NCBI GenBank assembly: GCA_025765615.1
Contig: JAIVFJ010000195.1
Location: forward strand, 1-64,000
Direction of reading: 5' to 3'
Length of the DNA: 64,000 bases
Source: Zopfochytrium polystomum
Lineage: Eukaryota; Chytridiomycota; Chytridiomycetes; Chytridiales; Chytridiaceae
The stretch's first letter is position 1. Every line of letters begins with the position of its first letter. The position numbers and the translations under genes were made by a program. The notes below the pieces were generated by a model. That model was not told where the DNA came from. It ran no database searches and saw only the letters and a program-made list of their open reading frames with translations. This document shows positions 6,101 to 55,627 of the stretch, one piece after another.

Positions 6101-7770
6101 ACAATCTGGATCACAATGTTTAGAACGGGGACGGAGCTGTACTGCGCGTCGTCGTCGCCGCTGCCGCTGTCGGCGGCGGGCATCGCCGCGCGCCGGCGCC
6201 GGAGAGGTAGTGAAGTCGCGGGAGGCTGGCTGCTGAATTGCCCGCTGCTGGGGTGCGCACCGCCTGCCCCGGCGAATGTCAGGTCCACACGCCCTTCGTC
6301 CGTGATCGACAACGTGTACGTCGAGTTGCGCCGCCGACGCGGCCTGCTCGCGTCCCATTCGTCCAGCTCCAACTCCTCGTCCACCGCGTTCTCTGCTGCA
6401 GTCGCCTCGTGCGCGGTGGCCGCGCGCTGCGGCTGCCGCCGTGAGCCGCTCGATCGACCGCCCGAGGACGCTCGGCTCCGGTGCGGCGCCCACGGCTACC
6501 GAGGACTTGCTGCGGCGGAGGGTCGGCGACGGCGGGGCTGCGGCAGCAGCAGCTGCCGGCGCCGCGAGGGCGTAGTCGGCGAGGGCGTCGACGAACGTGC
6601 TGTTGTTGTCCCAGAAGGATTTGTACTGCAGGGGGGGGAGGTAGGGGGGTTAGGTAAATGCATCTGCTTTGGCTTGGCTCGAGGGAAAAAATACGAAACG
6701 CCGTACCTTTAGGCTTCCCTTCCGCCACTTTAGGGCAAAGGCCTTGACGTCGTCGGGCAGCCGGTAAGTGTACCCGACATGGTCGATCTCGTCGTCGGGT
6801 CTGTCCACCAGCCATGCGCGGAGATTGTCGGCTGGCGGGGTCGCAGCGTCGCTCGGAACGGCAGTGATCTCGCGAACGAAGGGCTGGGGGGGTAGGGGTT
6901 GAGGATGAGTGTCAATCTTCGAATCAAGGAAGCGCTGCCCAAAACGCGAAACGACTTCCCTCGCTTCGCTCGGTCCAGACGGCTGCCCTCGCTTTCGCTC
7001 GGTCAATAACTCGGTCAATAACTCTCTCGCTTCGATTGGTCCAAGCGGACCAATCGGTTCGATCGGTCTACCGGTCATCTTCGCTTTGGTCGGCCCACTC
7101 TACTTCGCACGGTCTACCTGTCATCCTCGCTTCGCTCAGATTCCAATCCTCGCGCTCCGCGCGATCGCCTCCTTTCTATCTTGATCCCTTCCTCGCTTCG
7201 CCCGGCCATCATCGCTCCACCCAAAGATCCCCCTCTCCTTCTCTCTCTCTCATACCTTGACCAGCTTCGGATCCCCGACGAGCGACGCCGGCACGATCTG
7301 GTAGCAGACGGTCTCTGCGGGCCACGCGACCAGCAGGTACGCAAAGCGGCCGGGGCAGTGCGGGATGCCGCGTGGGACGGGTACGGGCGAGGCGGTGATC
7401 CAAGCGGTGCGGAGGGACGCGAGCGGCGCGAGGCCGATGTAGACGGGGGACGGGGGGAGCGGGGGTGGTGGCGGCGTCGCGGCGGGAACGGGGGTGGTCG
7501 AGGATCGTGACGGTGCAGCCGGGGGTTGGCTTGGCGGAGCAAGCCCTGTGAATGGTGGTGGTGGTCGGGGTCGTTGTGGTGGCGGTGGAAGCCGTGGGGC
7601 GGGTGGTGGCGTCGCCAGTAGTGGTGGTGGCTGCGGCGGGGTGGTAGCTGGCGGTGGGGGCGAAAACGGGAGGAGGCGGCGGGGGCGGAGGTGGAGAGTC
7701 GCGGTGCGACAGCGGGGGCGGCCGCGGGTAAGAGGACGACGGGTAAGGTGGCATCGGCATCGATCACCAA
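3101..7770 (-). CDS. Sterol 3-beta-glucosyltransferase (UGT80/ATG26 type)
   Basis: Predicted to transfer glucose from UDP-glucose to membrane sterols. Exons on the minus strand that I can join in frame: about 7770-7256, 6883-6707, 6625-5925 (with an unresolved internal join near 6490-6385), 5845-5564, 5468-5314, 5211-5145, 5036-4938, 4798-4505 and from 4411 leftward; the last part has a frame change near 4000 and ends in a stop at 3101. The GT28-type N-terminal fold is seen in [20 protein letters not shown], followed by MVKNPGLLPG restored exactly across one intron, then [14 protein letters not shown] and [11 protein letters not shown], and the nucleotide-sugar motif [10 protein letters not shown] with [10 protein letters not shown]. 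The catalytic half is strongly family-like. The N-terminal exons (Pro-rich, then [12 protein letters not shown] to KYKSFWDNN) do not look like the GRAM-PH region of ascomycete ATG26. The C-terminal tail is Ala-rich and helical. The start codon is uncertain because of low-complexity sequence. Confidence 0.85.
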
Positions 7771-7834
7771 TGAAATACTGTGTTATTTGAGAAGTGTAAG
7801 TATTTATCTGCATGCAAGTACGTTTGGAACTGCC

Positions 7835-7837
7835 GAG

Positions 7838-7919
<82 letters not shown>
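7835..7919. repeat. (GA)n microsatellite
   Basis: An almost pure GA repeat of about 85 bp lies in the upstream region shared by the sterol glucosyltransferase and the first GH16 gene. Confidence 0.95.
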
Positions 7920-7921
<2 letters not shown>

Positions 7922-8654
7922 TGAGACAGAGAGACAAAGACACTGGACGAACCAATCAACCGCCGCAAGACAACAACGCGAAACACTTACCCTTTTTCTA
8001 GTTGAAGTCCTGTCCACTCCTTGTGATACGATTCACTGCTCTGTCACTCGCCCTTTCGAAGTTGGCATCGGCTCAGGATTGTGGCTGGGGGAGTTGGAGA
8101 GTGGCTGTGCCGACAGACAGACAGAAGACAGAACAGACAGACAGGCCAGACTGGGCGGAAATCCAAAAGATATTCCGTCGATGCAGTGGTGCTCGAAATT
8201 CAAATTTTGCCGAGCAAGCTAATTATTAGAAGTAACAATACTAATACATCCTGCGCACAATCCCCCCCGGCACTCACCCCTCGCCTCGCAAACTGTCTGC
8301 CTAATACACACATCTTAAACAGCCGGCAAACCCATGAGGCCCCGGCAGTCAACAGCCCACTCTCCCTTTGAATCTGTCTCTGGTGGTGCTGACCAGGTTC
8401 CTTTGGCTTTAGCTCAGCCGATCCTCATCAATATTCTATCTCTGACGCAGGGAAGAAGCCTGCACTTGTTTCTTTCCCAAGGGTGGAGGGCCATCCTGCT
8501 TTTCTCGCGATTTCTGACTCCGCCACAGACTCTTGCGGATTTGTCTCATTTTTCGCGTTTACGTCTTTGGCTGCTCTGTCGCTTCCCCTCATCCCCAATT
8601 CTCTGTCGCTTTTCTGTTCCCACCTTGCTTTTCTCCTTGCGTCTCCGCATCGCC

Positions 8655-8687
<33 letters not shown>

Positions 8688-8883
8688 CTCACACCACACA
8701 GAACATACGCGCACTCGACGCAGAAGCGTCGCTGGTGCACGCGAATTCTCCAGTTCGATCTAAACAACCACTCTTCGAGTACCCGCACACAATCCCCGTC
8801 AGACGACAAACCGACTGTCAAAAACAACTGCGGGCGCGGCGAGAGGCCGATCCATCCAACCAGCGCTCGGCCAAACTTGGGAT
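7920..8883. other. Divergent intergenic region with (CA)n tract
   Basis: No gene is supported. It separates the leftward glucosyltransferase from the rightward GH16 gene and so should hold both promoters. A (CA)n tract runs 8656-8686. The last 60 bp resemble the sequence just before the second GH16 copy, so the gene duplication reaches into the 5' flank. Confidence 0.5.
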
Positions 8884-11533
8884 ATGCAGATCCGATTCCG
8901 ACCCGCGTCGCGAATCGCGATCGGCGCCGCATCCAGCGCAGTGGGTTTGAGCCTCTTCACCGTCGCTCCCAGTATCGCCATCGCTCAGTCTGTCTTCAAC
9001 GGGAGCTCGTGCTCGCTAAGCTACGATGCATTTGTCCAGTTTACCCCGTCGTCGCCTTTCACTATTCGTGAGTTTCGTCCTGCAGCCTCGCCTGGAGCGC
9101 CCAAAGCTTGTCGGCCTCATCGTCTGTCTAACGTTACACTCGACCATTCATCCTGTTCTCTTTTACTAACTTTCTTGCAGGCGAAGGCCAAGTCACATTC
9201 TCGGGTGGATCAATGATCCTCACCATGCAGCCGTGAGTTCTTCCTCTCAAGTACCTGTTCCCCCTGACGACCAGCAGATCTAACCCTTTAGCTCACCAAG
9301 GCCGGATGACGGGGCCGGAGCGGGGAAAAACAGCACTCGTGACGACGGTCCAGTCGCTCTTGTACGGGACGGTGGAGGCACAGATAACGCAAAGTTACGT
9401 CCCCGGCGCAGTCACGGGCCTGACTCTCGCAAAGGCAACGTTCGACCAAAGCGACGAGATCGACTTTGAGTGGCTCGGATCCGAACGGAACTCCGTCTGG
9501 ACGAAATTCTTTTACCGCGGCCTGCGCGACCCGCAAGGAGCGCCTTACTACGACAGTCGATCCATGAACCTCTCGGTAGCCGCCGACAACTCGCGCAACT
9601 TTCACACGTACAAGATTGAGTGGACGCCGTACGCGATTACGTGGTCGATCGACGGAACCGTTCGGCGCGTGCAAAACAGGACGGCTACCTGGGAGGCGAA
9701 AGGCACGGGCGATATGCTCGATCCGCCCGCCGACCATTATCACTACCCGGATCAACCTCTTCTTATCCGCTTGGGCATCTACGACCCAACGGGTGCTCCA
9801 TGGTCTGGAGGACCGATCAACTGGACCGACCCGCTTGCCGTGAAAGGCGCGAACGCTCAAATCGCCAGCCTAAAGATAACCTGCTACCAAGGTCCTTACC
9901 CCAGCAACATGTCCGCGCCCCCCTCCGACCCGAAAAGCTCCGACACGTACGGCATCGCGCCTGATCCAAGAAGCTTCTTCACCACTACGACAAGCTCGAG
10001 CAGCGCCAGCGCCACTACGGCCCCGGCGTCATACAGCCCCACGACGAACGGCACAGTGCCAGCCTCCAGCAGCAGCAGCGCCACTCCTATCATTGCCGGT
10101 TCCATCGCCGGCGCCGTCGTCCTCCTCGGCGCCGTCATCTGCGCAGTCTTTTTCCTCGTCATCCGCCCGCGCCGCGAAAACTCCCGCAACGTCGCCCAAA
10201 AGAAACGCGACCCAGCCGCCTTTTCCCCTCACCCCGGCGCGCCCCCAACCGCGGGCCTCCCCGCCCCTTACTACGCCCCGCACCCCCACAACCACCCAAA
10301 TCCGGACGTCAGCATCCAGCAGATGCAGCCCCTCCTCCCGCACGGCCCCCACGACCGCCACTCGTCCCGCCCCACCTCCACGCCGTCCGACGCCGCGTTC
10401 TCATCGCTTCATTCCCCTACCTCATCCACCGCGGCCGCCATCTCTCCACACATGCACCACCACCAACCCACCCCCAACGCCGCGATGCCCTTCCTCGCCG
10501 CCTCAACCCCAATCACCCCCGATGCCTGGCGCGCATCCGACCTCCACCACCGCGTCGGCTACGCCCCTACAACCTCCTCCCACCCCGCCTACGCGAAATC
10601 CGAAACCGGCTCACAATCCACCACCACCGCTCACCACCCTCTTCCGCGCGACTCGGTCCTCTCCATCGACCCCTCCACAGCCAGCGAATACACCCCCGCC
10701 CAGATCTTCCACAACTACTACCACAACCCGGCCCCAGCCCCCACCGCCCCGTCCACCGTCTCTGCCGCCGCCTCCGTCGCATCCACCACCTTCCAGCCGC
10801 TCCCGCGCGACCCCGGCAGCTACGACAAAAAGAGCGCTGCCGGCGGCGTCTCGGCCAGAACCTCGGCCGCTACCGCCGCCCTCGACGCCCCCCGCCGACG
10901 CCGACAGAAAGGACTCGACGCTGTTCACCGCCGCCGCCGCCGCCGCCGGGAATCCTGGAGACGTCGCGACCTGGAGCGTCGCAGGCGTCGGCGCGTTCTT
11001 GGGCCGCTGCGGCTTCGGCGCGGATGTCGTCAGCTTGTTTTACCGTGAGTTTGGACCCCTCCTCCTCCTCCCGCTCCCCCACCCCCCCTCTTCACGAAAA
11101 GAAACTCTCTCACGCTACGACGGCCCCCCCATTCTCCGCTGGGCAATAAGGCAACGACATCGACGGCCGCCTCCTCCTCGCCCTCGACGCCGCTTTCCTT
11201 CGCAACGAGCTCGGCATCGACTCGGCCGGCCTACGTGCCCGTATCCTCATGGCCGTCGAGCCGCTGCGGCCTGCCGCCCCGGCTCCCGCTGCAGATCCAC
11301 CCGCGACCGCCGCGGACGCGCCCGGGCTGCCGCCGTATTCGGGGGTGATTGGGGGAAGGAAATGGATGGAAGGAAGTAGGAGTGTTGCTGCTGGCTTGAT
11401 AGCCTTTTTTTTTTTCCTTTCTGAAAAAAAGTATTGCTTCCCATCGGATTCATGTCTGTTCGGGCGAGCCACGGACACACCTTTTTTTTTTTCTCTTAAC
11501 GAAGACTCGTATTGTGAATTAGGAGTTCACTAA
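8884..11533 (+). CDS. CRH-like GH16 transglycosylase fused to TM and SAM domain, copy 1
   Basis: Exons: 8884-9067, 9181-9232, about 9278-11044, 11151-11533. Residues 1-34 are a signal peptide ending AIAQ. The GH16 domain carries the catalytic motif DEIDFEWLG near residue 136 and an intact downstream core (FHTYKIEWTPYAITWSIDG), as in fungal CRH enzymes that link chitin to beta-glucan. A Ser/Thr-rich stretch and a transmembrane helix (AGSIAGAVVLLGAVICAVFF, about residue 350) follow, then basic RPRR and a long Pro/Ser/His-rich cytoplasmic region. The end is a SAM domain (WSVAGVGAFLGRCGF, then GRLLLALD and NELGIDSAGLRARIL) split by an intron. Frame problems against copy 2: an extra G near 9325, avoidable by using the acceptor at 9277; an extra C in the run 10888-10893 that puts SAM out of frame; an extra G that removes the stop matching copy 2 at about 11346, extending the end to 11533. 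Family CRH proteins normally end in a GPI signal; none is seen. Confidence 0.8.
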
Positions 11534-12420
11534 AGGGAATCATCGTTAGTCAGCCGATGCCTACTGTATGTCGAGGGCTCAATTGTCGCTGGGAGCTCGG
11601 TGATGTTCTCCTCGAACTTGGCTTGGACTTGGTTAAGTGTCTTTTTTTTTTTTTTTTTTTTTTGCGTTCCTTCAACCGATATTCTTTCCAAACCCCGGCA
11701 GCGTTTACGAACGCTATCGGGGGGCGAAGTTCGGGGCTGGATGCGAAAAAACAGAAAGAAGAAAAAATCAACAAAAAAAAAAAAAATGTAAAGATGAGGA
11801 AAGAAAAGAGCTGAATGATGTTTGACGACACTCCTTCTATCAATCCATTTTGGACTGCTCAATTACTCTTTACTCCGCCAACGCCGCTGCAGTCTGCCGC
11901 CCAACACCTCCCCCCCCAAACCCCCCCTTCCTTTTTCATCACCTAGTTGCGGCCGTCGCGGAACAAATTACCGTAAACGCCAATTTCATGGCCAAACTGT
12001 CCACGGAAGGTTTGATATTGATAAAAGTATGCAGTAGTTATCCGAAGGGAGTACGGTTAGATTCGTTAATGAGATGGGTGCACCGACTAATTTTTTCGCT
12101 ACTACTTCCTTTTTCGACCGTTTTTCGAACAAATTACACTATGCCTTTTGTTAGTTTTATTTTTAAATTTTTTTTTTCTCTTTCAATCAAGCTGAAACCA
12201 ATTTAGCTTTTGTTGCTTGGACCTCCCCGTTTCCAAAGTTCCGACGGATTCCTTCCCTATCGCCCAAACGCCATCAAACGCCACTTTTCGCAATTTCCGC
12301 GACTCGAAAGGGTTTTTGCTTTGTTTTTCGTCGTTTTTTTTTTTGCGTATCTCAGCCTCAGGCTCTGTATCTCACGCTTTCGCTTCCTAACTCACTCACA
12401 CACACACACACACACACACA

Positions 12421-12454
<34 letters not shown>

Positions 12455-12608
12455 GTCTCTCTCTCTCCCTTTTCTCCTTCTCTCTCCTCTGGCCAGCCCC
12501 CGACGTAATACTTGGATATAAAGCATACCAGCGGTCGCTGGCTGGTGCAGCGAGAGGCATCCGTCCAAACTGTTTGACAAAAACGCAACTCGCCCAAAAA
12601 CTTGGAAT
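11534..12608. other. Intergenic region between the two GH16-SAM genes
   Basis: No gene is supported. It contains a T22 run (11642-11663), several A-rich runs, and a (CA)n(CT)n microsatellite (12397-12480) in the same relative place as the CA tract before copy 1. The final 50 bp align with the copy 1 upstream sequence. Confidence 0.6.
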
Positions 12609-14931
12609 ATGCATATCCGATTTAGGCCCGCGCTGCAAGCCAGCAGCGTAAGCGTTGGGGCTCTTCGCCGTCGCTCCCACCATCACCTTCGCTCAGTCTG
12701 TCTTCAACGGGAGCTCTTGCTCTCTGAACTACGATGCATTTGTCCAGTTTACCCCATCGTCGCCTCTAACAATTCGTGAGTTTTGTCTTGCGCTTTGGGG
12801 TCTCCCGCTAATTAACATTCCCGTCCATTGTCACTTTTCTGCAGGCGAGGGTCAAGTCACATTCTCTGGCGGGTCAATGATCCTCACCATGCAGCCGTAA
12901 GTTTCCTTTTGTTCCTCACCAGACTCGATTATGTCTTTCCTCTGGAGACACCCCATCTCACTTTTCACGTCACCAAGACCGGATGACGGGGCCGGAGCGG
13001 GAAAAACAGCGCTCGTGACGACAGTCCAGTCGCTCTTGTACGGGACGGTGGAAGCCCAAATCACGCAAAGCTACGTCCCCGGCGCTGTCACGGGGCTGAC
13101 TCTCGCAAAGGCTACCTTTGATAAAAGCGACGAGATCGACTTTGAGTGGCTCGGCTCCGAACGCAACTCGGTCTGGACGAAATTCTTCTACCGCGGCCTG
13201 CGCGACCCGCAAGGAGCCCCCTATTACGACAGTCGATCCATGAACCTGTCTGTCGCCGCCGACAACTCGCGCAACTTTCACACGTACAAGATCGAGTGGA
13301 CGCCGTACGCGATTACGTGGTCGATCGACGGAACCGTTCGGCGCGTGCAAAACAGGTCGAGCACATGGGAGCCGAAAGGCACGGGCGACATGCTCGATCC
13401 GCCCGCCAGCCATTACCACTACCCGGAGCAGCCCCTTCTCATCCGTTTTGGCATCTACGACCCGACCGGCGCTCCTTGGTCAGGAGGACCGATCAAATGG
13501 ACCGACCCGCTTGCCGTGAAAGGCGCGAACGCTCAAGTCGCCAGCCTCAAGATAACTTGCTACCAGGGCCCCTACCCCCAGCGACATGTCCGCGCCGCCG
13601 TCCGACCCGAAAAGCTCCGACACGTACGGCATCGCGCCTGATCCAGCAAGCTTCTTCACCACGGCGACAAGCTCCAGCAGCGCCACCGCGGCCCCGGCGA
13701 CGAATAGCCCCACCGTGAATGGCACCGTGGCCGCCTCCGGCAGCAGCAGCGCCACACCTGTTATTGCCGGCTCCGTCGCTGGCGCCGTGGTCCTCCTCGG
13801 CGCCGCTGCCTGCGCAGTCTTCTTTCTCGTCATCCGCCCGCGCCGAGAAGCCTCCGAGTCGCGCAGCACCGAAAGAAAAAAGTTTGACCCCGCCCTCTTT
13901 GCCCGCCGCTCCAGCACGCCCTCATCCGCTCTCCCCGCATACGCTCAAGACCCTTACAACCGCCCGAACTCGGTCCTGAGCACACAGCAAACACACTCGC
14001 CCCCTCCGCACAGTTCCGCACCGTCAGACACCGGCTTGGACTCGCTGCCCTCCTCCCGCGCCGTCTCCCCTCACCTCCACCACCACCCGCCCACCCTGAC
14101 CGACTCCTCCGCACAGCCCTTCCTTGTCGCCTCCACCCCTATCACACCCGGTGCCTCGAGCTCCAACGCAACCGACATCCTCTACCACCGCGTCGGCTAC
14201 GCCCCACAGTCGGCTTCCAACGTCCACCCCGCCTACGCAAAGTCCGACGCTGGATCCACCGCCCGCACACAACGCGACTCGGTCCTCTCCATCGACCCCT
14301 CTACAGCCAGCGAATACACCCCAGGCCAGCTCTTCAACAACGCCTACCACCCGCCGGCCCCGTCCTCCGACGCCGCGTCCTCGTCCGTCTCCGCTTCCAC
14401 CTTCCAGCTGCCCCCGGGCACCACCCACTTTGCTTCAGACAGAAAAAGCGCCGCGGCCGGCGGCGTCTCGGCAAGGTCCACGACCGCGAGCGCGGGCAGT
14501 CGGACCGACGCCCCCGCCGACGGCGACAGGAAGGACTCGGCGCTGTTCGCCGCCGCCGCCGCCGCAGCTGGTGCCAGCCCGGCCGAGGTTGCCGCTTGGA
14601 GCGTCGCCGGCGTTGGCGCCTTCCTGGGCCGCTGCGGGTTCGAGGCGGATGTCGTCAGCTTGTTTAATCGTGAGTTTTCGATTACCCGCGCCCCTTCCCC
14701 CCCTTCATCTCACACTCACAAACCCGGCCCTCACCCCGCCCCGCAGGCAACGATATCAACGGCCGCCTCCTCCTCGCCCTCGACGCCGCATTCCTGCGCA
14801 ACGAGCTCGGCATCGATTCGGCCGGCCTGCGCGCCCGTATCCTTATGGCTGTCGAGCCGCTGCGGCCCGCCACCCACGCGCCAGCCCCCGCCGACGCGCC
14901 GGCTGCGGGGTTGCCGCCGTATTCGGGGTGA
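12609..14931 (+). CDS. CRH-like GH16-TM-SAM protein, copy 2 (5' end and one frame disrupted)
   Basis: A tandem copy of the preceding gene with the same exon layout: first exon to 12775, then 12845-12896, about 12953-14669, and 14747-14931 (TGA). GH16 is intact (DEIDFEWLG, MNLSVAADNS, GPYP end), the transmembrane helix (AGAVVLLGAAACAVFFLVI) and basic stop-transfer follow, and the SAM domain reads in one frame across its intron (WSVAGVGAFLGRCGF, ELGIDSAGLRARIL) to a clean stop after PPYSG. Two defects: the ATG at 12609 is out of frame with the mature GH16 start, with a TAA just before the signal-like segment; and the C-run at 13575-13579 has five Cs where copy 1 has four, breaking the frame between GH16 and the TM part. 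A GTAAGC after the ATG could act as a donor and rejoin the frame, but would remove the signal peptide. Decayed copy or sequence error are both possible. Confidence 0.75.
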
Positions 14932-14935
14932 TTGA

Positions 14936-14954
14936 GGGGGGGGGGGGGGGGGGG
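14936..14954. repeat. G19 homopolymer
   Basis: Nineteen consecutive Gs start five bases after the stop of GH16-SAM copy 2. The following 470 bp up to the next gene show no coding signal. Confidence 0.95.
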
Positions 14955-15425
14955 TGGTCGAGGGAGCCGCGGGTTGTGTTGGGAGGTGTGTGCATAATGG
15001 GAATCCGAAACAGTGTGTTGTACAGTCGTCTGGAGTGGGAGGGAACTTTTTCAAGGGTCGGATAATGCGTGGGTGGGGCCAGCAGAGAGCCGATGCTTTG
15101 GCGACGCCTTCGCTCGGGCGACATCCACAATTTGCAAAACTTTTTTTGGAGCCCGAGGACGGATCAAAATAATGTGTGCGAAACAACAACAAGAGTCATT
15201 GGCGGGCCCGCACGGCGCGAGCCTGTTTTGCTACATTGAGTGTCTGCACGATGTCCAGGATCATCCCTTAAGTAGCCGCCACTAGCAATGAGCGGAAGGA
15301 AGAAAAAAAAAAAAGTTAGTACATATCGCTTTCGAAGTAGCTAAACGCATGGCCATGACCAGCGGTGTCTTGGAAACCTTACTGCCTCGCAACACGCTGC
15401 GCTGCTTGCAGCCCGCCCTTCTTCC

Positions 15426-16848
15426 CTACTTTATAACCCTCTCGATCCTCTCCAGCTCCAACCCGAGCTTTACTCCACCGCCGCCGTCCTGCGTCCTGAA
15501 CTCCAACCCAAGTTGCTCCATCGTCGCCACCAGCGCCAGGTCCGCCAGCGACGCCGCGGTCCGCGTCGACGCCATGATCGGCGGCGACGGCGATGTTGTC
15601 GTACCGGTGGCCGGGGACCCGCGCGAAGACGGCTGCAGCAGCTGCGACTGCGGCGAGTTCGCCGGGGACGGAGAAGGCCGCGGCGCGTCCGCCGCGACGA
15701 CACCACCACCGCCGCCGCGCGGGTGCGGGCTCTTGCTTGTATGCCGACGGCGCGTCGCGACTGCGGCGCGCTGGGGCACCAGCGAGTTTCCGCGCGCCGG
15801 CACCGCGACGGCGGCGGTGGAGTACCCTCGTTTCGCGGTGGCACCTCCGTGCGGCGTCGGCGGCGACCGGGGTTCCGTCTCGGCGTCGGCAGCGGCCGCG
15901 GCGGCGGCCGCCACCACCGTCCGCTGTCTCGCCACCCGGCGGCCCCTCTCCGCCGCCGCCTCGGCCCGCGCCGACTCCGCCATCCGCTGCTGCGTCTTGA
16001 GCATCAGCGTGCTGACCTCGACGGCTACGACCAGCGACAGCGACTGCGCGTGCGGGTGCGGCGGCAGTCCCGGCGGGCACAACTCCGCATCCGCGCCGTC
16101 GTCCGACGAGGAGGGGAACCCGACGCCGGTCGCCGCGCACCCGGCGGCCAGGTTCGCGAGGGTCCGCCGCGGGTCGACGAGCAGCTTGAGGTAGAATAGG
16201 CGCAGGAACCCGGCGCGCGTCAGGACAGGGAGGAGCGCGGCCGGCGCGGCGGTTCGCGCAGTCGTGCTCCGTTGTGTTGAGCGTGTCCTTGGGCGTCAGC
16301 GGCGCGAAGGGGTCCGCGGTGCTGTGCGGCGGCGGCGACCAGGGCGGTTGCAGGAGGAAGGGGATTTTGAAGAGGGTGAGGATCTTGATGAGGGGCTTTG
16401 GGTGGGAAAAGACGTCTTGGGGAACGGGCGGAGGATTGTTCAGTTGTGTGTCGGGGGGGACTCCATCCGCCGCATTCTCCCCAACCTGTCGTAGAGGGAT
16501 CCATCAGGCGGGAAATCTCGACGATCTTTTGATGCTCCAGCAGGCCTGTGTTCGACGGCTCCACCGTCGCGTCAATGCGGTCGAACAGTTCGAGGAGGGT
16601 GGTGCGAAGCGCCGGGTGCACCGAGTAGTCCGAGTCGACGAGGTAGGTGGGGGGCTGCCGCTGCTGCACGGGTTCGAGCGAGGTCGGCTGGACGGGCAGC
16701 GGGGAGAGCGGGTTGGGCCTTCGTTGTCAGCGCCTCGCGGGATAGAGCTCGTTGAAACGGCTGCCCCTCGACCGGCTCTCGGCGGCGCGGTTGGTGCTGG
16801 TCGCCCTTAGCGCGGAGATGAGTGTAGAGGAGAGAGGGGTTGGGATAG

Positions 16849-16881
<33 letters not shown>

Positions 16882-16983
16882 CCCGTTGTGAGCGTGTAAG
16901 GCTGCGCGCGTCCCTGGCCCTGCTGAAGTAGCAGAGACAGCGGCAGCAGCGGCGGCGGCGACGGCTGGCGGTAGTACGCCATG
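15426..16983 (-). CDS. Unassigned low-complexity fungal protein
   Basis: Start chosen at 16983 (MAYYRQPSPPPLLPL), followed by a Gln run. Two non-repetitive cores are visible: YLVDSDYSVHPALRTTLLEL with a helical continuation (DATVEPSNTGLLEHQKIVEI) at about 16640-16500, and LTRAGFLRLFYLKLLVDPRR at about 16220-16160. The C-terminal part is Ala/Arg-rich, then disordered, ending LGLELERIERVIK at a stop at 15426. The pieces lie in different frames, so at least two introns are needed; I could not fix the joins. The order of the cores recalls the ascomycete DUF7514 region, but this is only an impression. No signal peptide or membrane segment. Confidence 0.5.
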
Positions 16984-18002
16984 TCTAATGGCGGTGAGGG
17001 AGTGGAATGAAGGGTGAGAGGGGAGAAGAGAGAGTAAGGAAGGAGCGCGAGAGAGAGAGAGAGAGATGGATTGAGGGACAGAGGGAGAGACAGAGAGAGA
17101 GCGAGAGAGAGAGAGAGAGAGAGGCGGAAAACCGAGGAGAGTGACGACGGCATAAATGGCTCTTGGCTGCACTGGCGCACTCTATCGATTCGGAATTTAT
17201 CGTGTCTGTTTCGGCTTTCCTTTTTCTTTTGTTTCCCGATTTGGCTTGGTGACAAATTTCGAGAACACTTTGGCAAGAAAATTCCAATCACGGGACAATT
17301 TGCAACACCCTGAACGGAACGGGGAACTGAGAGAATCCGTCCAAACTCAGGGTTGTTATTAATATTTTTTGGACGACCCTACCTCTGCGAGAGCGTCGCG
17401 CGATGCAGAAACCGCCCTCCTTCCATTTTTGGCAGATCGCCGGCATTTTGGACGGCATTTTGGACAGATCCAACGCTTGTCCCAACCCTGCCCAAGTCCC
17501 TCCCTGTGCATGAAGAGAGAGCTGAAGCACAGCTAATCTGGTTGCCGGGGGTAGGAGGTGAGAATTTGCTCACCTCGTCCCTCCGTCCGGAGGCCTCCTC
17601 CTCTTGCCCGGCACGTTGAGCCAAAAGCCAATTGGAAAAAAAAACTGGGCAGAGAGCTTCACATCCATTCGTTTCCAAAAAGGGAATTTCCAGCCAACCA
17701 ACGCGCAAGCAGTATGGCGCCGCTGTGCAATGAAGAGCTGGAGGTGAGTTGGAGGGAGTAGGGGGGGAGGAGAAGTACTCATCACTTTGACTCGGAGTCC
17801 GTCTCGTAATGAGCCCACCCTGTGCTTGAAACCGGAAAGGGCCCTTCCCAAAAAAAAAAGCGCATTAGAACACTTTTCGGCCGAAAACCGACCAAGCCGG
17901 TTCGACCTGTTCTCGAAAGTCGAAATATTCTCTTCGTCACGACTCAAGGTACCTCTCTTTCCCTCAAGTTCATAAGACGCAGGAGAGGGGGGGTGGGGGG
18001 GA
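16984..18002. other. No assigned gene; GA-rich promoter
   Basis: The first 150 bp are the upstream region of the minus-strand gene and contain a broken (GA)n tract (17047-17131). The rest has only short ORFs without motifs. Confidence 0.5.
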
Positions 18003-18722
18003 CGAGGTGGGGAGCTTAACGAGGCGAATCAGATATCAAGGCCGCCTTTGCTATACAGTTTGCTCAAGGTGCTAGGAGGTTTCGATATCGGGAACACACA
18101 AGCACCACTGCCCTGGCACTCCCCACTGGCCATTGCTGGGCCTACCCGTAAAAAAATGAGTGAACACGAATAAGGGCTGGCGTGCAGCCCCCTCCTACGG
18201 TCCTAGAGGGTACGTATGCATGTATGGAAGGAGCCCGCTTGTGAGGGTCCTGCCTTGAACTGTCGTGGGTAAGAGGCGGACGGGTGAGGGAGAAGGAATG
18301 GAGACACCAAGCGAGAAGGTGAGGAGGGAGGCAAGTGTCGCCTCTATTTCAGTGTGACGGGGAGGGAGGGAGATTTGCCCCGGCGAATGACTGGCTTCTT
18401 CGTACCTCCGTTGTTTGGAAGAAACTACTTAAAACCGGGAGCTGAATTTGACGGGGGTCGACCGTCATCCAAAGTCGGAATCTTGCCTTGGCCCCGCCGC
18501 AACAGAAGGTAATTCTCTGAATTCACTGTCGCTTTCGTGTTCTTCGTCGGGTGGGCGGTGGAGGGGCGGAGGGCACGAGAAGGGAGCTTAACAAGGTGAA
18601 TACGAGCCCGTCACTATCAAGACAGCTCTAGCAATGCTTCCTGCTCATGGTGCTGCAGCTAGGGGATTTTCCATAGAAAGTACACACAACACCACTGCCC
18701 TGCCGCTCCCCACTAGTCAGCG
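18003..18722. repeat. Degenerate direct duplication, about 0.58-0.6 kb period
   Basis: A 135-bp block at 18003-18136 (GGGGAGCTTAACGAGGCGAA ... ACCACTGCCCTGGCACTCCC) recurs, diverged, at 18576-18722 (AGGGAGCTTAAC ... ACCACTGCCCTGCCGCTCCC). Later landmarks such as CTCTATTTCAGTGTGACGGG near 18342 and CTCTATTCTGGGTGTGACGG near 18936 keep a similar offset, so the duplication extends to about 18960. No reading frame is conserved between copies. Confidence 0.55.
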
Positions 18723-19567
18723 TGCTCTCCTCCGTGAAGGCGCGGTTCTTTGTGCAGGGCCGAGATGCACGGTTATCGGAGCGAGCGAATGCGTGCGCCA
18801 TTGAAGTTCTGCATTGACCTGTTGTCGCAGCGGGCTTCGAGGGAGATGGAATGGAGAAGTCGGTTCGGTGGGTGGGATCAGTGGGAAGGTGATACGGTGG
18901 ATGGGTCGCGAGGAGTGGGGGACAACCCGGAGGAGGCTCTATTCTGGGTGTGACGGGAAGAAAAGGGTTTGTTTGTGCTCACACGGACTCATCGAAGCTT
19001 TCCATCGCTCATTTTGGAAGTTCGGTGTGAGAGACAACTTGCAATCGATGGAGAGCGTGGAGCGGCCTGTGTGAGATGAGGGGGAGCGAATCCCTTTGGA
19101 TATTGCAGGAGGCACCTTAGCACAGCCACTTTGGAGGGCAGAACAGCATGCGATGATGGTGCAACGACAGGGGCCACGTATACAGCCGTCTGTGGATGAG
19201 TTTGCGAGCAAGGAGCTTGTGTGCTTTCTTTCGCGGTTGGACGCGCCTTGTGACGGAGAGGGCAGGGGGGCGCATCTGTGTAAGGAGGGTTGGGGGGCAC
19301 TGTGGGGGTGGAGGCTGTCCGCATGACGCCTTCAATGCTTAGTCTGCGCCACAGCCACCGCTGCAGGCCGCATACCCGACGGAAGGCGAGCCCACTCACG
19401 CCACTCCTCTCACGTTGCTTCTTTCTCTCACTCTCACTCTCTCTCTCTCTCACAGGTCTTCCTTTCGTGCTTCTCGCAAGGTTCAACCTTTCTGTTCTTT
19501 TTTTTTTCAATACTTAACGTGGTTCAATCCGTTTTCAAAACGATAATTTTGGGGCATCGTTCGGTCT

Positions 19568-19729
19568 CACACAACACACTCACACACACACACACACACA
19601 CACACTTTCTTGGCACAGTTGCGGAATGTCAGGCGAGGGAAAACTACATCATTCTTTTTGCACTCTGTTTCTCTTTTAGGGGCTGTGCAAACACTGCCAC
19701 AAAGAAGCGGGAGGCTCCTCTCCGTCTCC

Positions 19730-19810
<81 letters not shown>

Positions 19811-19815
19811 TCTGT
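19568..19815. repeat. (CA)n and long (TC)n microsatellites
   Basis: A (CA)n tract at about 19574-19604 is followed by an 80-bp (TC)n tract at 19732-19815. Confidence 0.9.
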
Positions 19816-20320
19816 TCTCCGCAAGTCCTGGCCCTCTGTCACGGCAGAAAACCAGTGAAAGGATTTCTTGGCGGACGCGACCGAAATCGGCCCACGCGCC
19901 AGTCACAAAAACAACTCGCGTCCCAACCTTTGTCTTCCTCCATCGCTCCTCCTCTTCTCTCTCTCTCCTACTCGTCTGTCTTTTTCTGTCTGTCTCTCCA
20001 CCTTTTTCCCTTTTTTGGATGGCGCGATCGTTAACGCCCTCTCAAATCCCCGAAAATCTCGTTTCACCGATCACTTGCCCTTTTTGGTGCAAAGGCACCC
20101 AACGCCCACCACACACAACACCACACACAGACAGGCACAAACACAACATGAAAAAGATTGAAATAAACGAGAGGGAGCGAGAAAAAAAAATTAAAAAAAG
20201 AAAATAAAACAAGAAAAGGTTCTCCGAATTAATGGGTGATATTGGCCTTAGCCCTGACACACGTTCGCGGGAAGACGTTTGAAGGGGGCGGGTGGTTGAA
20301 TTTGCTGACCGACTCTGAGA

Positions 20321-20334
20321 GCCAGAAGAGAGAG

Positions 20335-20402
<68 letters not shown>

Positions 20403-20578
20403 GAGAGAGAGAGCGAGAGAGAGGAGAGAGAGAAGCCGAAAGAGAGACAGATAGAGCGAAGGGGTAGACAGATAGGAGCGAGAGTAGTAGAATCTATGCT
20501 TCCAAGAAGTCTCTTTCTCTCTCGCATCTCTCCAATCTCTCTCTCTGTCTCTGCGTATCCTCTCGCTCATTCTCTCAT

Positions 20579-20622
<44 letters not shown>

Positions 20623-20640
20623 TCTCTCTCCTCTCTCTCT
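20321..20640. repeat. (GA)n and (CT)n tracts facing each other
   Basis: GA-rich sequence runs 20321-20434 and CT-rich sequence 20515-20640. The two arms are complementary in composition and could pair as a long imperfect hairpin. Confidence 0.85.
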
Positions 20641-21191
20641 TTCATGGCCAGCTCACATACGCAGCGTGACGAACTAATGATCGAAAAAACATTGACAGGG
20701 ATGGCGCGAAAGGCAGAGCAAGGGACGGCGAAGGAAAACAACTGCTAGTGACGAGGCCCTCCAGGTTGTTGCGGAAGACAGATGTGATTCGGAGTAGACA
20801 CACAAAAGAGATAGAGAGGGAGAGAGAGAGTTAAAGGCTGACTATGAGTGAATGAGGGAGAACCAAACAGAAAGAGAAGAGAATGATAGAGAGAGAGCGT
20901 GAGACAGAGAGAGAGTGTGAGAGAGAGTGTGTGGTGTGAGTGAGAGTGTGAGTGGCTATTATCAAACAGGGACAACAAGCGAGCGACAGACAGAGTGAAC
21001 GAACGATGGCGAGAGCGACTTGGGGACAGAGAGGCAGTCAAGAGAGCAGAGATGGCGACAGCGTAGGAAACAAGTAGGAGAGAAACAGAGAGAGAGCGGC
21101 GGTGGATTAGTTTTAGCTCCCATAAAGAACCTTCTTTCACAAACACTCCTTTCGTCCCACAAGCTACCGTCGTTTCTTTCCAGCTACCAAC

Positions 21192-23479
21192 ATGCACCTC
21201 TCCATTCCCACCACCCCCGACGCTGCCGACAACGGCAACTCTTCCACCAGGTCGTCCTCCCGCGACACAGGTAGCACACCCGACACTTCCGACTCCCCTA
21301 CCGCCTCAAGAACACCCACCCCGTCCGACTCGAGCGAGCCGCCGGCCAACTCCTCCGACCGCGGTGACGACGACGACGACAGCACCAACGGCCGCCCCGA
21401 CCGGCCCGTCTCGTCCGCAAGCCGCTTCCGCAACCACTTCCTCGTCGCCGGGCTCGACGCCGCCACTCCGCGCCGAGCTTCGACACCCCCAGCCACCGCG
21501 GCCCGCTCCGGCTCCGACCCGTCTACCCCGCCCCTCTCCCCCTCCCCCTCGGCCGCATCCCTCTCGTCCCTCGAGGCCGCCGCACGAACCACTTTCATCC
21601 AAACCAAGCCCGAACGCGCCTCCCGCGGCTCATCTTCCTCCCTCGCGCAGCCGCCCGTCGACCGCCCCGCGAGCTTCGTGTACCAGCGCGGCAGCGCTGT
21701 TATGCGGTACTACGGCAGTACGGCCAGCATCGCAAGCAGCAGCGGCGCCAGCAGCACCACTAGCGCCGCCGCCGCCGCCGCTGCGGGCGGCCACTACCAC
21801 TACCACCGCCAAGTGCACACCGCCGGCCCCGCCGCGGGGGCGTCCATGACCTCGCGGTCGCGCTCCGCGTCCGGCGGATCGTTCGAACGGGCCACCAGCG
21901 GCACGCCGCACTCGAGCCCGGCGCTGAGCGAGAACGACCCCGGTGCCATCGCGCGACACCGGCTGTCGTCGCCGACAGGCACCGCGTCGTTGTCGTCCCG
22001 CTCGCCCCGCCCGAGCCTGATGCTGAGGAGCTTTGTGTCGCACTCGTCGTTTGCCATGCCGGCGGCGGACGACGACGACGACGACGACGACGAAAGTGAC
22101 GATGGCGACGGAGACGACGAGGAGGCGGCGTCCAAGCCGAGGAAGGTGGGCGGCGAGATGAAGGCGGCGAAGGGCGAGCGCGGCGTGGACCGCCTGCGGA
22201 CTGGTGAGGGATAGCTTTCTTTCTTTTTTTTTTTTTGTTTTGGGTTATCGTGGAGGCAACTATGTGTTCTATTTTTTACGCTTGTTGCTCGCTGACAAGG
22301 ATTGACAAACACAAACACAGCAAAGAACGGGCGAGTGTTTTTCGTGCTGCTTGCCTTCCTTACCCTCGCTGCGTTGGTAAGAACATTCGTCTGCACCTGA
22401 ACAATCGAAAGCGCGCTGCCTGTCTCTTTCCGTGTGCTAACATTTCTTTCGCTTCTCTTTCTGCATGTCTTCCACCGGCACAACCACACAACCGCCAGTC
22501 CGGCACGTTGACGGTCTACTTTATCCGGTACTCCACGAGCACGGCGTCCACGCGCCAAAAGCCCCTGGACCTGACCATCAAGCTCGACTCGCGTCTGCGC
22601 AAGAGCCTCTACGGCCTGGACTACACCCCGCCCTTTGGCGGGCAGTACGACCAAGGCTGCTACATCACGCAGCAAGACGTCCTCGACCACGTCAAGCTCA
22701 TGTCGCAGCTGACCACCCGCATCCGCCTCTACGGCATGGACTGCCTCGTCGCCGACTTCACCCTCAACGCCGTCCGCCTACTCAACGTCAACCTCTCCGT
22801 CGTCCTCACCCTCTGGGAAGACAACGACATCGCCATGATCACCCGCCAGCGCAAAGAGCTCTACCGCGTCGTCGCAAAGTACGGTGGCCAAAATATCTCC
22901 TACGTCTCCGTCGGAAACGAGGTCCTCCTCCGCGCCGCCGACAAGGGCGACCAGGCCGTCAAGTTCATGGGCAAGGAAATCGACAAAACCAGGGCCTGGC
23001 TGAAGGACCAGGGGTACGGACACATTGGCGTCGTCACCACCGACGTCGCGGACAGCTGGTCCACCTACCCGGACATCCTCTCCCACTCCGACGAGGCCTG
23101 GGGCAACGTCCACCCGTTCTTCGCCGGCGTGCTCCCCACCGCCGGGTGGGACTTTGCGATGAAGTCCCTCGCCGCCAAGGGCACCGGGCTCGCGTGGCTG
23201 GCGAACAAGACCGGCAAGTCCGCCATGATCAGCGAGATCGGCTGGCCGACCGCGCCCGTCAACGAGAGCTACCAGGCCAGCGTGCCCACCGTCGAGAACA
23301 TGAATACTTTCTTCAACCTGTGGGTGTGCCCCGCGAACCGCGCGGGGATAAAGTACTTTTGGTTCGAGGCGTTCGACTGCCCGTGGAAGGAGGCGTACAG
23401 CATCCGCGAGGCGAGCTGGGGACTCTTTGACAGCAGCTTGAAGCTCAAGGACGGCGTCGTGATCCCGCAGTGCGATTAG
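21192..23479 (+). CDS. Type II membrane GH17 endo-beta-1,3-glucanase
   Basis: Three exons (21192-22203, 22321-22376, 22499-23479) join in frame to 682 aa. Residues 1-340 are a disordered Ser/Thr/Pro-rich cytoplasmic tail with an Asp run (about residues 295-302) and no signal peptide. Exon 2 codes the signal anchor (GRVFFVLLAFLTLAAL, about residues 340-365). The rest is a GH17 domain: YGLDYTPPFGGQYDQGC, RIRLYGMDC, the acid/base Glu in YVSVGNEVL (about 495) and the nucleophile Glu in ISEIGWPT (about 600), ending KYFWFEAFDCPWKE. This is the layout of ascomycete btgC-type glucanases, which act on wall beta-1,3-glucan from the plasma membrane. Intron sites are canonical. The GA/CT-rich upstream region is the likely promoter. 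Confidence 0.9.
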
Positions 23480-46311: not shown

Positions 46312-47046
46312 ATGAGCCGACTCGCCCTGCTCTTCGTTGTTGCGTTCCTCGCATCACCGTCCCTCGCGGCGTACCCTCAAGTCGATGGCAACTTCACCAT
46401 CTCCGTCACCAACCAGCCCTCCTCCAACCAGTACTGCGTGGCCGACTCCATCGCCTACACGCTCGACCTGACCAACGTTCCAAAAGCCAACCCGAACAAC
46501 AGCTCGGACGCGACCTACCTCTCCATCATGGTCATGGGACCCCCGCAGGACCCCTCTGTCGATCCGAACGGAATATCAAAGACACCTCGCGGCCTTGTCG
46601 TCGGCGCGCTGGGCAAAACCCTGGTCTCGACGTTCTCTGGTTCGGATGCGTATGTCGTAGAAGAAAAGCTGAAAGGATTCACCGGCCTCTTCCTCCGCGC
46701 GATCGTTTTCTACGACAGCCAAAGCGCGCTGTTTGAGTCCTTCCAGACGGCGGCCTCCAGCAAAACCCCTTTCTCGATTGCGAAGAGCTGCAACTCAACT
46801 AGCACATCGCCCTCCTTGTCGTCGACCTCATCATCGTCAACCTCGGCATCGTCGTCCACTCTTCCGACTTCATCGACCTCAGACTCCACCTCAGCATCGT
46901 CGTCGCAAACATCCAGCTCCTCGGCCTCATCGAGCAGCTCTCAGAACTCGACTTCGTCGATCCTGTACAGCGGTGCTGTTGCGGGGGCCTCGGTATCCCG
47001 CTTTGCTGCCTTTGCTGCAGTCCCTCTGTTAATTCTCCTCGCATGA
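46312..47046 (+). CDS. GPI-type surface protein, family member A
   Basis: Intronless, 244 aa. A signal peptide (1-20, ends SPSLAAY) precedes one 135-residue domain with the family signature NFTISVTNQPSSNQYCVADS, then ISKTPRGLVVGALG and KGFTGLFLRAIVFY, closing at a second Cys (AKSC). Two Cys at the domain ends may pair. A 75-residue Ser-rich stalk with NSTSSILYSGA and a hydrophobic end (VPLLILLA) fit a GPI anchor signal. Several N-glycosylation sequons occur. Its domain is closest to the second domain of gene B, not the first. It stands 9 kb from the rest of the array, separated by an oxidase and a laccase. Function unknown. Confidence 0.85.
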   Translation: MSRLALLFVVAFLASPSLAAYPQVDGNFTISVTNQPSSNQYCVADSIAYTLDLTNVPKANPNNSSDATYLSIMVMGPPQDPSVDPNGISKTPRGLVVGALGKTLVSTFSGSDAYVVEEKLKGFTGLFLRAIVFYDSQSALFESFQTAASSKTPFSIAKSCNSTSTSPSLSSTSSSSTSASSSTLPTSSTSDSTSASSSQTSSSSASSSSSQNSTSSILYSGAVAGASVSRFAAFAAVPLLILLA

Positions 47047-47344
47047 GGCGGGCATTTGCTGGGCCTTATGGTCTCGTATCCATCTTTGTTTTGGTCGTTC
47101 ATTTTTTCAGATCTTCTTTTTATTTGGGCCAGGGCCTCGTCTTCTGCACTTAGATTCACCAGTCATTGCATTCTCTGTTTAACCCAAACACATCCGTCAA
47201 ACGCACACACCAATGAACCTATACTATTATTTGGTCACAAACACTCTGGCGTGTATTTTCTCGATGCTGATACTGACTCGATTCAACTAACACACCAGAG
47301 CCACCTCAACCCAAAACTGCTGCTCAATTCCTTTTCCTTGTGCT

Positions 47345-48966
47345 CTACTCCGCCGGGACGATCGGGTGCTTCTTGTGGAACACATTGGCGGGGTCATACT
47401 TTTTCTTGAGCAGTTGGAGTCGAGAGTAGTTCTCCCCGTAAATGTAGTCGCCCTTGTGCTCTTTCAAGACGGCTGCGTTCGGGTATCCGGTGCCTTTGAT
47501 AATGTCTCCGCCCACCTTTTTTGCGTGCCTGTCGCGGAGATTCTTGATCATGCTTTTGGCATGCGCGTGGGCCTCGCCAGCCTCTTTGGGATTGTCGTAG
47601 CTGCGGTTGAAAGTGGATTGTGTGGGAAAAAAAGGGTTTGATTGAGGATGAATAATGTGCAAAAATTAATGTGCCAGCGGAACTCACCCCACGTAAATGG
47701 CAACATCACGCCAAATGTTGCCGTTCGGGTCGGCCGGCTTTCGTCGGTGCGGTGGCCAAGCGGACTCGAGGTGGGCGAACTCGGTGAGTGGCTTTGTCCA
47801 GTCGTACAATCCGATATAAAACTGGGTGCCGGCGCCGCGGCCCTTCCCGCCTCGCATCCAAGCGCGCGTCTCGTCAACCAACGGCATGAGTACCTCGGGT
47901 GACAGGTCCGTGATCAGCGTGCCGTCCGACAGCCGGTTCGTCGGCGGCCAGATGGACTCGGGGAAAAAGTCTGCCGACTCGTGAAACCAACATTCCCGCG
48001 ACGTGTCCTTGACAAAGGGCAGCTCAAAGAACACCCGGAACCGGCGCTGGTACTCCTCCTCGCTGTCCCCGTGGTAGTACAGCATCAGCACGAACATATC
48101 CTCCTGCCCCGGTATCAGCCCGGCCATAGTCAACGCCGCCATGTCCTCCTTCTTCTGCGACTTGGCGTAGCCCCCCAGCGCCTCAATCACCGCAGCGTAC
48201 GCCGGCGGCGGGTACAACACAGCGCCGAACCACACCTTGCTCACCAGCGGCACCGCGCGGAAACGCATCTTCGTCACGACGCCAAAGTTGTACGCTGCGC
48301 CGCGCAGCGCAAAGTACAGCTCCGCGTTCTCCGTCGCGGACTCCGTCACGCACTCGCCGCTGGCCAGCACCACCCGCGCGTCGACGAGCCCGTCCGCGGC
48401 CATCCCGTAGACCCCCATGCCCCAGCCGAAGCCGCCGCCGAGGGCGAAGCCGGCGTAGCCGATTTCCTTGTGGGAGGGGACGGGGACGAAGACGCCGCGT
48501 CGCTCGCAGGCGAGGGCGACGTCTGCCACTGTTGCGCCGCCCTCCATGACGACGTGACCAGCGGCGCCGTAGGCGGCGTTTTCGACCCACGCCGTACGCA
48601 TCCGCTTGAGGTCGATGATGACGCCGTCAGAGGATGATGCGCCGAGGAACGAGTGGCCGCCAGAGCAGACTGCGAGCTCGAGGTTGTTGGACGTTGCATA
48701 ATTGATGGCGACCGCGACGTCGGCTTCAGTGCAGGGCTGGAAGATGACTTGTGGGCGGGCTTCTTCGTTGGGAGAGAAGCGGTAGACGAGGGCGTTGTAG
48801 AGGTCGTCGCCTGGGACGACAACCACTGGAGGTGGGCGAAGCGAGGAAAGCACAAAGATAGGCTATGATTAGCAAGATGAAGCGCTCATCTTCACGTTGC
48901 ACAAGTAGCTCGCTTGGTGAACAGACCTCCTCGAAAACGGTCTTTGACAGACTCCAGTGATGTCAT
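47345..48966 (-). CDS. FAD-linked oxidase, BBE (berberine-bridge) type
   Basis: Exons 48966-48927, 48825-47688 and 47600-47345 give 477 aa; the short first exon (MTSLESVKDRFRG) joins in phase to VVVVPGDDLYNALVYRFSP. The FAD-binding PCMH fold is shown by CSGGHSFLGASSSDGVIIDL, whose His is the usual covalent FAD site, and ALGGGFGWGMGVYGMAADGL. The second covalent Cys of bicovalent members is not in its usual place. The BBE C-terminal segment is complete (GDYIYGENYSRLQLLKKKYD, PANVFHKKHPI). No signal peptide, so probably cytosolic, unlike many secreted members. Substrate unknown; relatives oxidise sugars or alkaloid-like compounds. Confidence 0.88.
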
Positions 48967-49266
48967 TTTTGTGTACGTTTGAGATTGTGCTGCAGAATTG
49001 AGTGTTTTCAGTCTTCAAGTTGATGAGAGAATGGCGCTCGGTATTTATGGAGGGGATCCACAGCCTCATTCACTCGTCGTCGGATTCCGATTGTTTTACG
49101 CGCTCCCGAATGCGAGCATGAAAGTTTAGGTCGAAAGCATATGATTTGGTGGAAGCGGAAGGCCACCCGACCTAGGCGAAGGCGGAGGTGACGGCGTGCA
49201 AGCCGGACCTAAACGAGCTGGCGGAGGATGCAAAGATCCCCCAGTTCTTGGGGCCCTGGGGGATTC

Positions 49267-49348
49267 TGCCGATTGTCCGCGGACATGGTCTTGACCGGTC
49301 ATAATGACCGGTCAATATTGTGCCGATTGTCCGCGGACATGGTCTTGA
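49267..49348. promoter_or_regulatory. 25-bp palindrome between two 28-bp direct repeats
   Basis: A perfect 12+1+12 palindrome (arms TTGACCGGTCAT) lies at 49291-49315. An identical 28-bp sequence beginning TGCCGATTGTCCGCGGACAT occurs on both sides (49267-49294 and 49321-49348) and itself contains the palindromic TCCGCGGA. It lies about 300 bp upstream of the FAD oxidase start. CGG/CCG half-sites recall Zn2Cys6 regulator sites; the regulator is not known. Confidence 0.55.
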
Positions 49349-49404
49349 GGGGGGGTGTTTGGGGATGCTGCCGCTCGTTGGCGGACGCGGTCAACGGCGG
49401 ACAA

Positions 49405-49414
49405 GTCACGTGAC
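49405..49414. promoter_or_regulatory. E-box GTCACGTGAC
   Basis: A perfect 10-bp palindrome with the CACGTG core bound by bHLH factors of the Cbf1 class, close to the palindromic cluster. Confidence 0.4.
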
Positions 49415-49429
49415 TGCGTCCCGTTTGAG

Positions 49430-49944: not shown

Positions 49945-50019
<75 letters not shown>

Positions 50020-53093: not shown

Positions 53094-53096
<3 letters not shown>

Positions 53097-53133
<37 letters not shown>
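53097..53133. repeat. (GT)n microsatellite
   Basis: A 37-bp GT repeat lies about 260 bp upstream of the laccase start. Confidence 0.9.
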
Positions 53134-53134
<1 letters not shown>

Positions 53135-55600: not shown

Positions 55601-55627
55601 CGCCCTGCCTGGTAGGACCAATGCAGG

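Follow-up and report, generated by a model that had tools for sequence, protein, structure and literature searches.

Tandem genes of a chytrid fungus combining a CRH-like GH16 enzyme, a membrane helix and a putative cytoplasmic SAM-PY tail

Crh-type enzymes that cross-link the fungal cell wall are mostly described as glycosylphosphatidylinositol (GPI)-anchored or secreted proteins, and a gene pair of Zopfochytrium polystomum raises the question of how an enzyme of this kind could come to carry a SAM domain and a putative ubiquitin ligase docking motif on the inside of the membrane. The pair lies in a stretch of 64,000 nucleotides, here called the window, which is part of contig C195 (JAIVFJ010000195.1) in an assembly of 80.2 Mb in 761 contigs (GCA_025765615.1). 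Copy 1 (8884-11347) and copy 2 (12611-14931) stand in tandem on the + strand with a DNA identity of 75.8% over ~2.4 kb, and each contains in the same order a GH16 domain with DEIDFE, a Ser/Thr-rich stalk, one membrane helix, a long tail, an intron-split SAM domain, and LPPY. Two observations are new here, namely LPPY at the ends of both tails and a SAM-PY end that is shared with other membrane proteins of the genome. Taken together, the data suggest, with a probability of about 0.5, that the two genes encode type I GH16 enzymes carrying the acquired tail of a SAM-PY family, in which the SAM domain would mediate clustering and the PY motif ligase-dependent turnover. The sequence itself shows the modules, the order in which they occur, and the family, whereas clustering, ligase binding, and wall cross-linking are what these modules may mean for the living cell.

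The gene models are based on GT/AG sites and on comparison between the copies, and signal peptides and GPI-type ends were assessed by eye. Each copy is composed of a short exon 1, a 52-base exon 2, a long exon 3 extending from GH16 through the first half of the SAM domain, an intron within this domain, and a last exon with the remainder of the domain and the C-terminus. Exon 1 of copy 1 (8884-9067) translates into an in-frame signal peptide (MQIRFRPAS...IAIAQ) and the start of the mature protein, and exon 2 (9181-9232), bounded by a GT donor and an AG acceptor, takes the same place as exon 2 of copy 2 (12845-12896). The modelled exon 1 of copy 2 (12611-12775) contains a signal-peptide-like stretch in a frame other than that of the ATG at 12611, and its mature part, from 12694, is in frame with exon 2. 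Exon 3 lies at 9278-11044 in copy 1, with the open reading frames (ORFs) 9237-11048 and 9880-11379, and at 12978-14669 in copy 2, with the ORFs 12901-13641 and 13556-14935. By their positions in the sequence, the membrane helices of copy 1 (IIAGSIAGAVVLLGAVICAVFFLVI, 10089-10163) and copy 2 (VIAGSVAGAVVLLGAAACAVFFLVI, 13760-13834) are each followed by RPRR. In both copies, ~250 tail residues separate the helix and RPRR from the SAM domain. The tail is placed on the inside because the basic residues after the helix fit such a location. A sequence-only reading had described a tandem pair with signal peptides, GH16 with DEIDFE, a stalk, one helix, a long tail, and an inside SAM domain. This layout is retained, as is the signal peptide of copy 1, but the chain does not run in a single frame in either copy, and the signal-peptide stretch of copy 2 is out of frame. 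Frame breaks, a PY motif at the C-terminus, and membership in a SAM-PY family went unnoticed in that reading. The predicted arrangement, two tandem genes encoding single-pass (type I) membrane GH16 enzymes, can therefore be regarded as partly confirmed and as real with the caveats given below.

The SAM domain becomes recognizable when its two exon parts are joined. Taken by itself, the second SAM exon scores 21.6 bits in copy 1 (11151-11347, with the domain reaching ~11269) and 20.8 bits in copy 2 (14747-14931, with the domain reaching ~14865) against the SAM_2 cut-off of 20.5, and the first SAM exon part of copy 1 (10972-11044) has no Pfam match by itself. Joined across the modelled introns (11045-11150 in copy 1; 14670-14746 in copy 2, where the first part lies at 14597-14669), the exons reach 38.9 and 38.4 bits, respectively, and cover positions 2-63 of the 66 in SAM_2 (PF07647), so that both domains lie over the family cut-off along their length. 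This increase is the expectation if the SAM intron is real, and the intron position matches between the copies. Against solved structures, the SAM domain of copy 2 gives a best E value of 1.3e-4.

Long open frames were set aside as coding evidence because several frames are open in this region of 65-69% G+C, and mismatches between the two copies were counted at codon positions 1/2/3 instead. The counts are 6/2/45 in GH16 exon 3 (p 1e-14), 13/5/20 in the stalk and helix, 7/5/19 in the first SAM exon with its linker (p 0.004), and 1/0/8 in the second SAM exon (p 0.002). A third-position excess is absent from the introns (6/12/8 for intron 1 and 7/8/12 for the SAM intron), and the tail (55/41/61) shows no significant excess and hence no sign of strong constraint. 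The ratio of nonsynonymous to synonymous substitution rates (dN/dS) between the copies is 0.091 in GH16 (243 codons, 93% identical residues), 0.115 in the SAM region (111 codons, 87%), and 0.382 in the stalk, helix, and tail (278 codons, 67%), suggesting that selection has acted on the SAM domain about as strongly as on GH16.

Both copies end in LPPY, at 11327-11338 in copy 1 and at 14911-14922, ahead of the stop codon, in copy 2; the last exon of copy 1 as written continues in frame beyond the position where copy 2 stops. LPxY is a variant of the PPXY motif, and LPPY could accordingly serve as a docking motif of the NEDD4/Rsp5 type. A genome search with the SAM domain of copy 2 yielded 53 matches at E <= 1, a count that covers both copies and second-haplotype versions, and the nearest relatives of this domain beyond the copies are found on C86 (in an array at 70-82 kb), C4, C306, and C524, with 45-51% identity among the top four. 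When the C4 member was used as the query, 45 matches at E <= 0.001 were obtained on 15 contigs, exon pieces and the GH16 copies among them. Fourteen family loci were read (L021, L042-L047, L049-L054, and L058 on C105), a number that includes second-haplotype versions and thus stands for fewer independent genes. PPPY or LPPY starts within the last nine residues in all 14, and 11 of them also encode a strongly hydrophobic 19-residue helix (mean hydropathy >= 2.25) in one ORF with the motif. For L043, L045, and L053 the family helix lies upstream but in a different frame, which may be read as a frame break. None of six control SAM_2 loci outside the family (L015-L020), read in the frame of the SAM match, has a PY motif in the last 40 ORF residues or a same-ORF helix (best mean hydropathy 1.36); some of their ORFs are exon pieces of only 81-172 codons, which limits this control. 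An upstream hydrophobic stretch in any frame was rejected as a helix test, since the controls L015, L017, and L018 also show one, and helices were counted only when they lie in the same ORF. P-P-Y is invariant in nine of nine aligned sequences, namely seven family members and both GH16 copies. The SAM profile of these nine members finds SAMHD1 as its best solved SAM domain (E 4.1e-6), although the profile includes both GH16 copies, which match alone, and the member at C86:76596 passes SAM_2 with 29.9 bits. The GH16 copies possess the helix, the tail, a SAM domain of this subgroup, and a C-terminal LPPY that characterize the family, with frames broken in the assembly. Collectively, the tail end is common to a family of membrane proteins that share a helix, a tail, a SAM domain, and a C-terminal PY motif and differ in their outside parts.

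These outside parts are of more than one type. Three C86 members and the C105 member have a cysteine-rich domain of ~110-130 residues with eight shared cysteines, and L051 and L054 have a different domain of ~150 residues; no Pfam match over cut-off was obtained for the outside sequences scanned (two ORFs and three C86 domains). The order of the eight cysteines recalls WSC, but a WSC identity was not supported, as hhalign gave a probability of 1% for four sequences against six WSC sequences of the same genome and Pfam gave no match for three. WSC itself has 141 matches genome-wide at E <= 0.01, including within-gene repeats and haplotype versions, which is large for one genome. The array on C86 (70310-82447; L021, L042, L046, L049, L050, L055, and L056) comprises five membrane proteins with SAM-PY tails, several of which carry a repeated motif like LFTGAADITAALAAAA. 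Four further family matches, of which one (L052) was read, lie at C195:111920-117033, ~97 kb from the GH16 pair, and similar ones lie on C188, C208, and C477.

The enzyme domain itself is clearly of GH16 type. Its main part, at 9297-9902 in copy 1 and 12978-13575 in copy 2, matches PF00722 with 92.5 bits (E 2.8e-26) and 94.7 bits (E 5.8e-27), respectively, against a cut-off of 22, and the DEIDFE found by motif search at 9453-9470 and 13129-13146 conforms to the GH16 active site EXDXE. The nearest solved relative is a Crh enzyme, Crh5/crf1 of Aspergillus fumigatus (6ibu), with E 7.5e-10 for a single-sequence query and E 6.3e-16 (61.7 bits, the next structure having 44.8) for a three-sequence profile. 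Crh enzymes share DEXDXE and GTIXWXGG (PMC6458159), and the second motif is also written G[TN]IXWXGG (PMC7389268). The CRH label of the sequence-only reading holds for the catalytic motif, since DEIDFE agrees with DEXDXE in both copies, but not for the second motif: GTIXWXGG has no exact match in the six frames of the window, and the profile alignment places GPI(K/N)WTDP there, keeping only G, I, and W. An extra residue is found in the catalytic motif of five of the six non-Crh GH16 enzymes of A. niger (PMC7389268), and because this residue is absent from the window genes, they are nearer to Crh at this motif. The window enzymes may thus be called CRH-like only loosely, with strict CRH membership failing on the second motif.

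A possible origin of the tail can be deduced from the GH16 paralogues. No C-terminal GPI signal is seen in copies 1 and 2, in which the helix, RPRR, and the ~250-residue tail before the SAM domain are present instead. The closest GH16 paralogue elsewhere in the genome, found on C39 and C354 and 53-54% identical, shares sequence past CYQGPYPSDMSAPP and then turns into a Ser/Thr-rich stretch and, by eye, a hydrophobic GPI-type C-terminus; the genome search with the SAM domain of copy 2 (E <= 1) found no match on either contig. Because the nearest paralogue has a GPI-type end and no SAM match on its contigs, a replacement of the tail is suggested, in which a GPI-type GH16 wall enzyme probably acquired the shared SAM-PY tail before the tandem duplication, the direction of this change being one that we infer.

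Candidate partners of the PY motif are encoded in the same genome. Three WW domains followed by HECT occur on C215 at 73.9-75.8 kb and again at 78.1-80.1 kb, forming a tandem pair (C215:73910-80108) with a matching pair at C164:77923-84112, and this is the layout of NEDD4/Rsp5 ligases. The WW domains of Rsp5/NEDD4 bind PPXY motifs, and Rsp5 ubiquitylates yeast plasma-membrane proteins for sorting (PMC4276913). A putative PY motif on the inside and such ligases in the genome are both present, and the copies are candidate NEDD4/Rsp5 clients. On the outside, the CRH-like GH16 domain, held on its Ser/Thr stalk, would remodel chitin or glucan; on the inside, the long and probably flexible tail would present the SAM domain and the terminal LPPY. 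The SAM domain could cluster the enzyme, by self-association or together with other members of the SAM-PY family, and LPPY could dock a NEDD4/Rsp5-type ubiquitin ligase and thereby set the surface residence or removal of the enzyme. The sequence-only reading had likewise suggested that the SAM domain may serve oligomerisation or signalling. In a wider and more speculative scheme, which we consider rather unlikely, one inside unit of SAM and C-terminal PY would be combined with exchangeable outside parts, one branch carrying the wall enzyme, so that SAM co-clustering and switch-off by the ligase would amount to inside-out control of the wall.

Several observations weigh against type I GH16 enzymes with an acquired SAM-PY tail. 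Shuffling gives a PY motif in the last 12 residues with a chance of ~0.037 per GH16 copy and of 0.002-0.024 in seven other members, chances that are not independent since the nine are related; at ~4%, the LPPY of the GH16 copies would be convincing only through the family, whose members are related. The C-terminus after the SAM domain shows no codon-position bias (8/4/8) and hence, as in the tail, no sign of strong constraint. Pfam is weak on the SAM domains of other members, giving for two ORFs one SAM_1 score of 13.6 bits (cut-off 23) and one result without a SAM match, and the intron in the SAM domain of the GH16 copies is absent from the family members read. When the stalk, tail, and first SAM exon of copy 2 were searched against the genome, three weak matches (E 0.003, 0.02, and 0.08) were found besides the copies and their second version on C685. 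Structure prediction of GH16 gave a mean predicted local distance difference test score (pLDDT) of 39 alone and 33 with the two copies aligned. In addition, neither copy as written encodes the whole chain in one frame.

The frame breaks bear on whether both copies are decaying pseudogenes, in which real breaks would prevent the synthesis of complete proteins. In copy 1, the frame from GH16 to the tail (ORF 9237-11048) passes the SAM domain in another frame, the first SAM exon lying in ORF 9880-11379, and the break is near 10885-10900; the acceptor before 9278, which keeps exon 2 in frame with GH16, is upstream of its modelled counterpart in copy 2. Copy 2 reads GH16 in one frame (ORF 12901-13641) and the stretch from the stalk to SAM in another (ORF 13556-14935), with a break near 13570-13580. 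The breaks sit in or beside short G/C runs whose lengths differ between the copies, and the copies tile each other, copy 1 being open from GH16 to the tail and copy 2 from the stalk to the SAM domain. A second version of window 7289-22073 is present on contig C685 (L009 and L010), with identities of 91.9% and 92.9% in two pieces; it is dense in one-base gaps, the first piece having 245 gap openings against 220 mismatches in 10,540 columns, and it looks like an unpolished second haplotype. Decay would agree with the presence of frame breaks in each copy and with the identity of C685 and the window at two runs, in copy 2 exon 1 and near the start of copy 1 exon 3. It is nevertheless improbable, considering that dN/dS is 0.09-0.12 in GH16 and SAM, that the breaks at short G/C runs are not alike in both copies, that C685 and the window disagree at three such runs, near 10888, 11341, and 13575, and that comparable breaks occur between the contig pairs C39/C354 and C306/C86. 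Taken with the low dN/dS of GH16 and SAM, the tiling of the two copies favours assembly error or very recent damage over old pseudogenes, and most of the breaks may be assembly errors. Other regions of the genome, such as the arrays on C188, C208, C477, and C195, recur on two to four contigs, again with few mismatches and many gaps.

The other two explanations concern the tail. If the SAM exons belonged to a separate downstream gene or matched by chance, the low scores of the second exons alone (20.8-21.6 bits) and the lack of a match for the first exon of copy 1 would be accounted for; this is most improbable, because the joined exons reach 38 bits, the stalk, helix, tail, and first SAM exon of copy 2 lie within one 459-codon ORF, the whole block was carried by the duplication, and 11 of the 14 family members have the helix, tail, SAM domain, and PY motif in one ORF. 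The sequence-only reading had itself named SAM exons in separate genes as the outcome that would overturn its proposal, and the single stalk-to-SAM frame of copy 2 and the codon statistics make this outcome unlikely while supporting its proposal of a GH16 protein that spans the membrane and has its SAM domain on the inside. A tail that merely anchors and traffics the enzyme, with SAM and PY serving sorting and turnover and with no clustering or inward signal, deserves more attention. It would resemble CrhF and CrhG of A. niger, for which one helix is predicted instead of GPI (PMC7389268), as well as the membrane proteins that Rsp5, whose WW domains bind PPXY motifs, sorts by ubiquitylation (PMC4276913). 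We consider this somewhat unlikely, given that selection on the SAM domain is about that on the enzyme domain and that the domain is kept across the family, which is more than a bare sorting tail needs.

The preferred reading, an acquired SAM-PY tail that would cluster the enzyme and control its turnover, can be compared with several known systems. The SAM domains of polyhomeotic, DGK delta, SARM1, and tankyrase polymerise, and these proteins are among the weak solved-structure matches of the SAM domains described here, the fold being alike by sequence and the similarity weak. The yeast wall-stress sensors Wsc1 and Mid2 have an outside domain, a Ser/Thr stalk, one helix, and a cytoplasmic tail and are not known to be enzymes or to have a SAM-PY end; the window genes resemble them in plan alone and have GH16, not WSC, as their outside domain. 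Sna3, Ear1, and Ssh4 are membrane proteins with an inside PPxY-type motif and are not known to contain GH16 or SAM. The window copies would be similar to them as predicted membrane proteins with an inside PPxY-type motif in a genome encoding a NEDD4-type ligase, and all three are named as Rsp5 adaptors in PMC4276913. Compared to CRH wall transglycosylases such as Crh5/crf1 (6ibu), the copies are similar in GH16, in DEXDXE without the extra residue, in secretion, and in the Ser/Thr-rich stalk, but they have GPI(K/N)WTDP for GTIXWXGG and a helix with a SAM-PY tail for GPI. The signal peptide, GH16, and one predicted helix instead of GPI are also found in A. niger CrhF and CrhG, which have 363 and 443 residues and, compared by description only, are given no SAM or PY tail in the accessible text (PMC7389268). 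A membrane helix replacing GPI is thus not new alone, CrhF and CrhG being the precedent.

If the preferred reading is true, a binding module and a ligase-docking motif on the inside would let the cell control the location and residence time of the enzyme directly, so that a wall enzyme may be clustered or removed from inside. The SAM-PY family also offers paired genes in one genome, GPI-type and SAM-PY-type GH16, for probing the function of the tail. No paper on a GH16-SAM protein was found among open-licence PMC papers, which is no proof of absence.

Elsewhere in the window, ~7 kb from the pair, a partial match to GH17 (PF00332, 36.6 bits), another family of wall-glucan enzymes, lies at 22208-23476. 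At least seven stretches of ~120-445 bases are repeated at 69-80% identity within 46357-61932, and an ORF in this repeat region (55581-56882) has a short match to Ig-like_Pom152_9.

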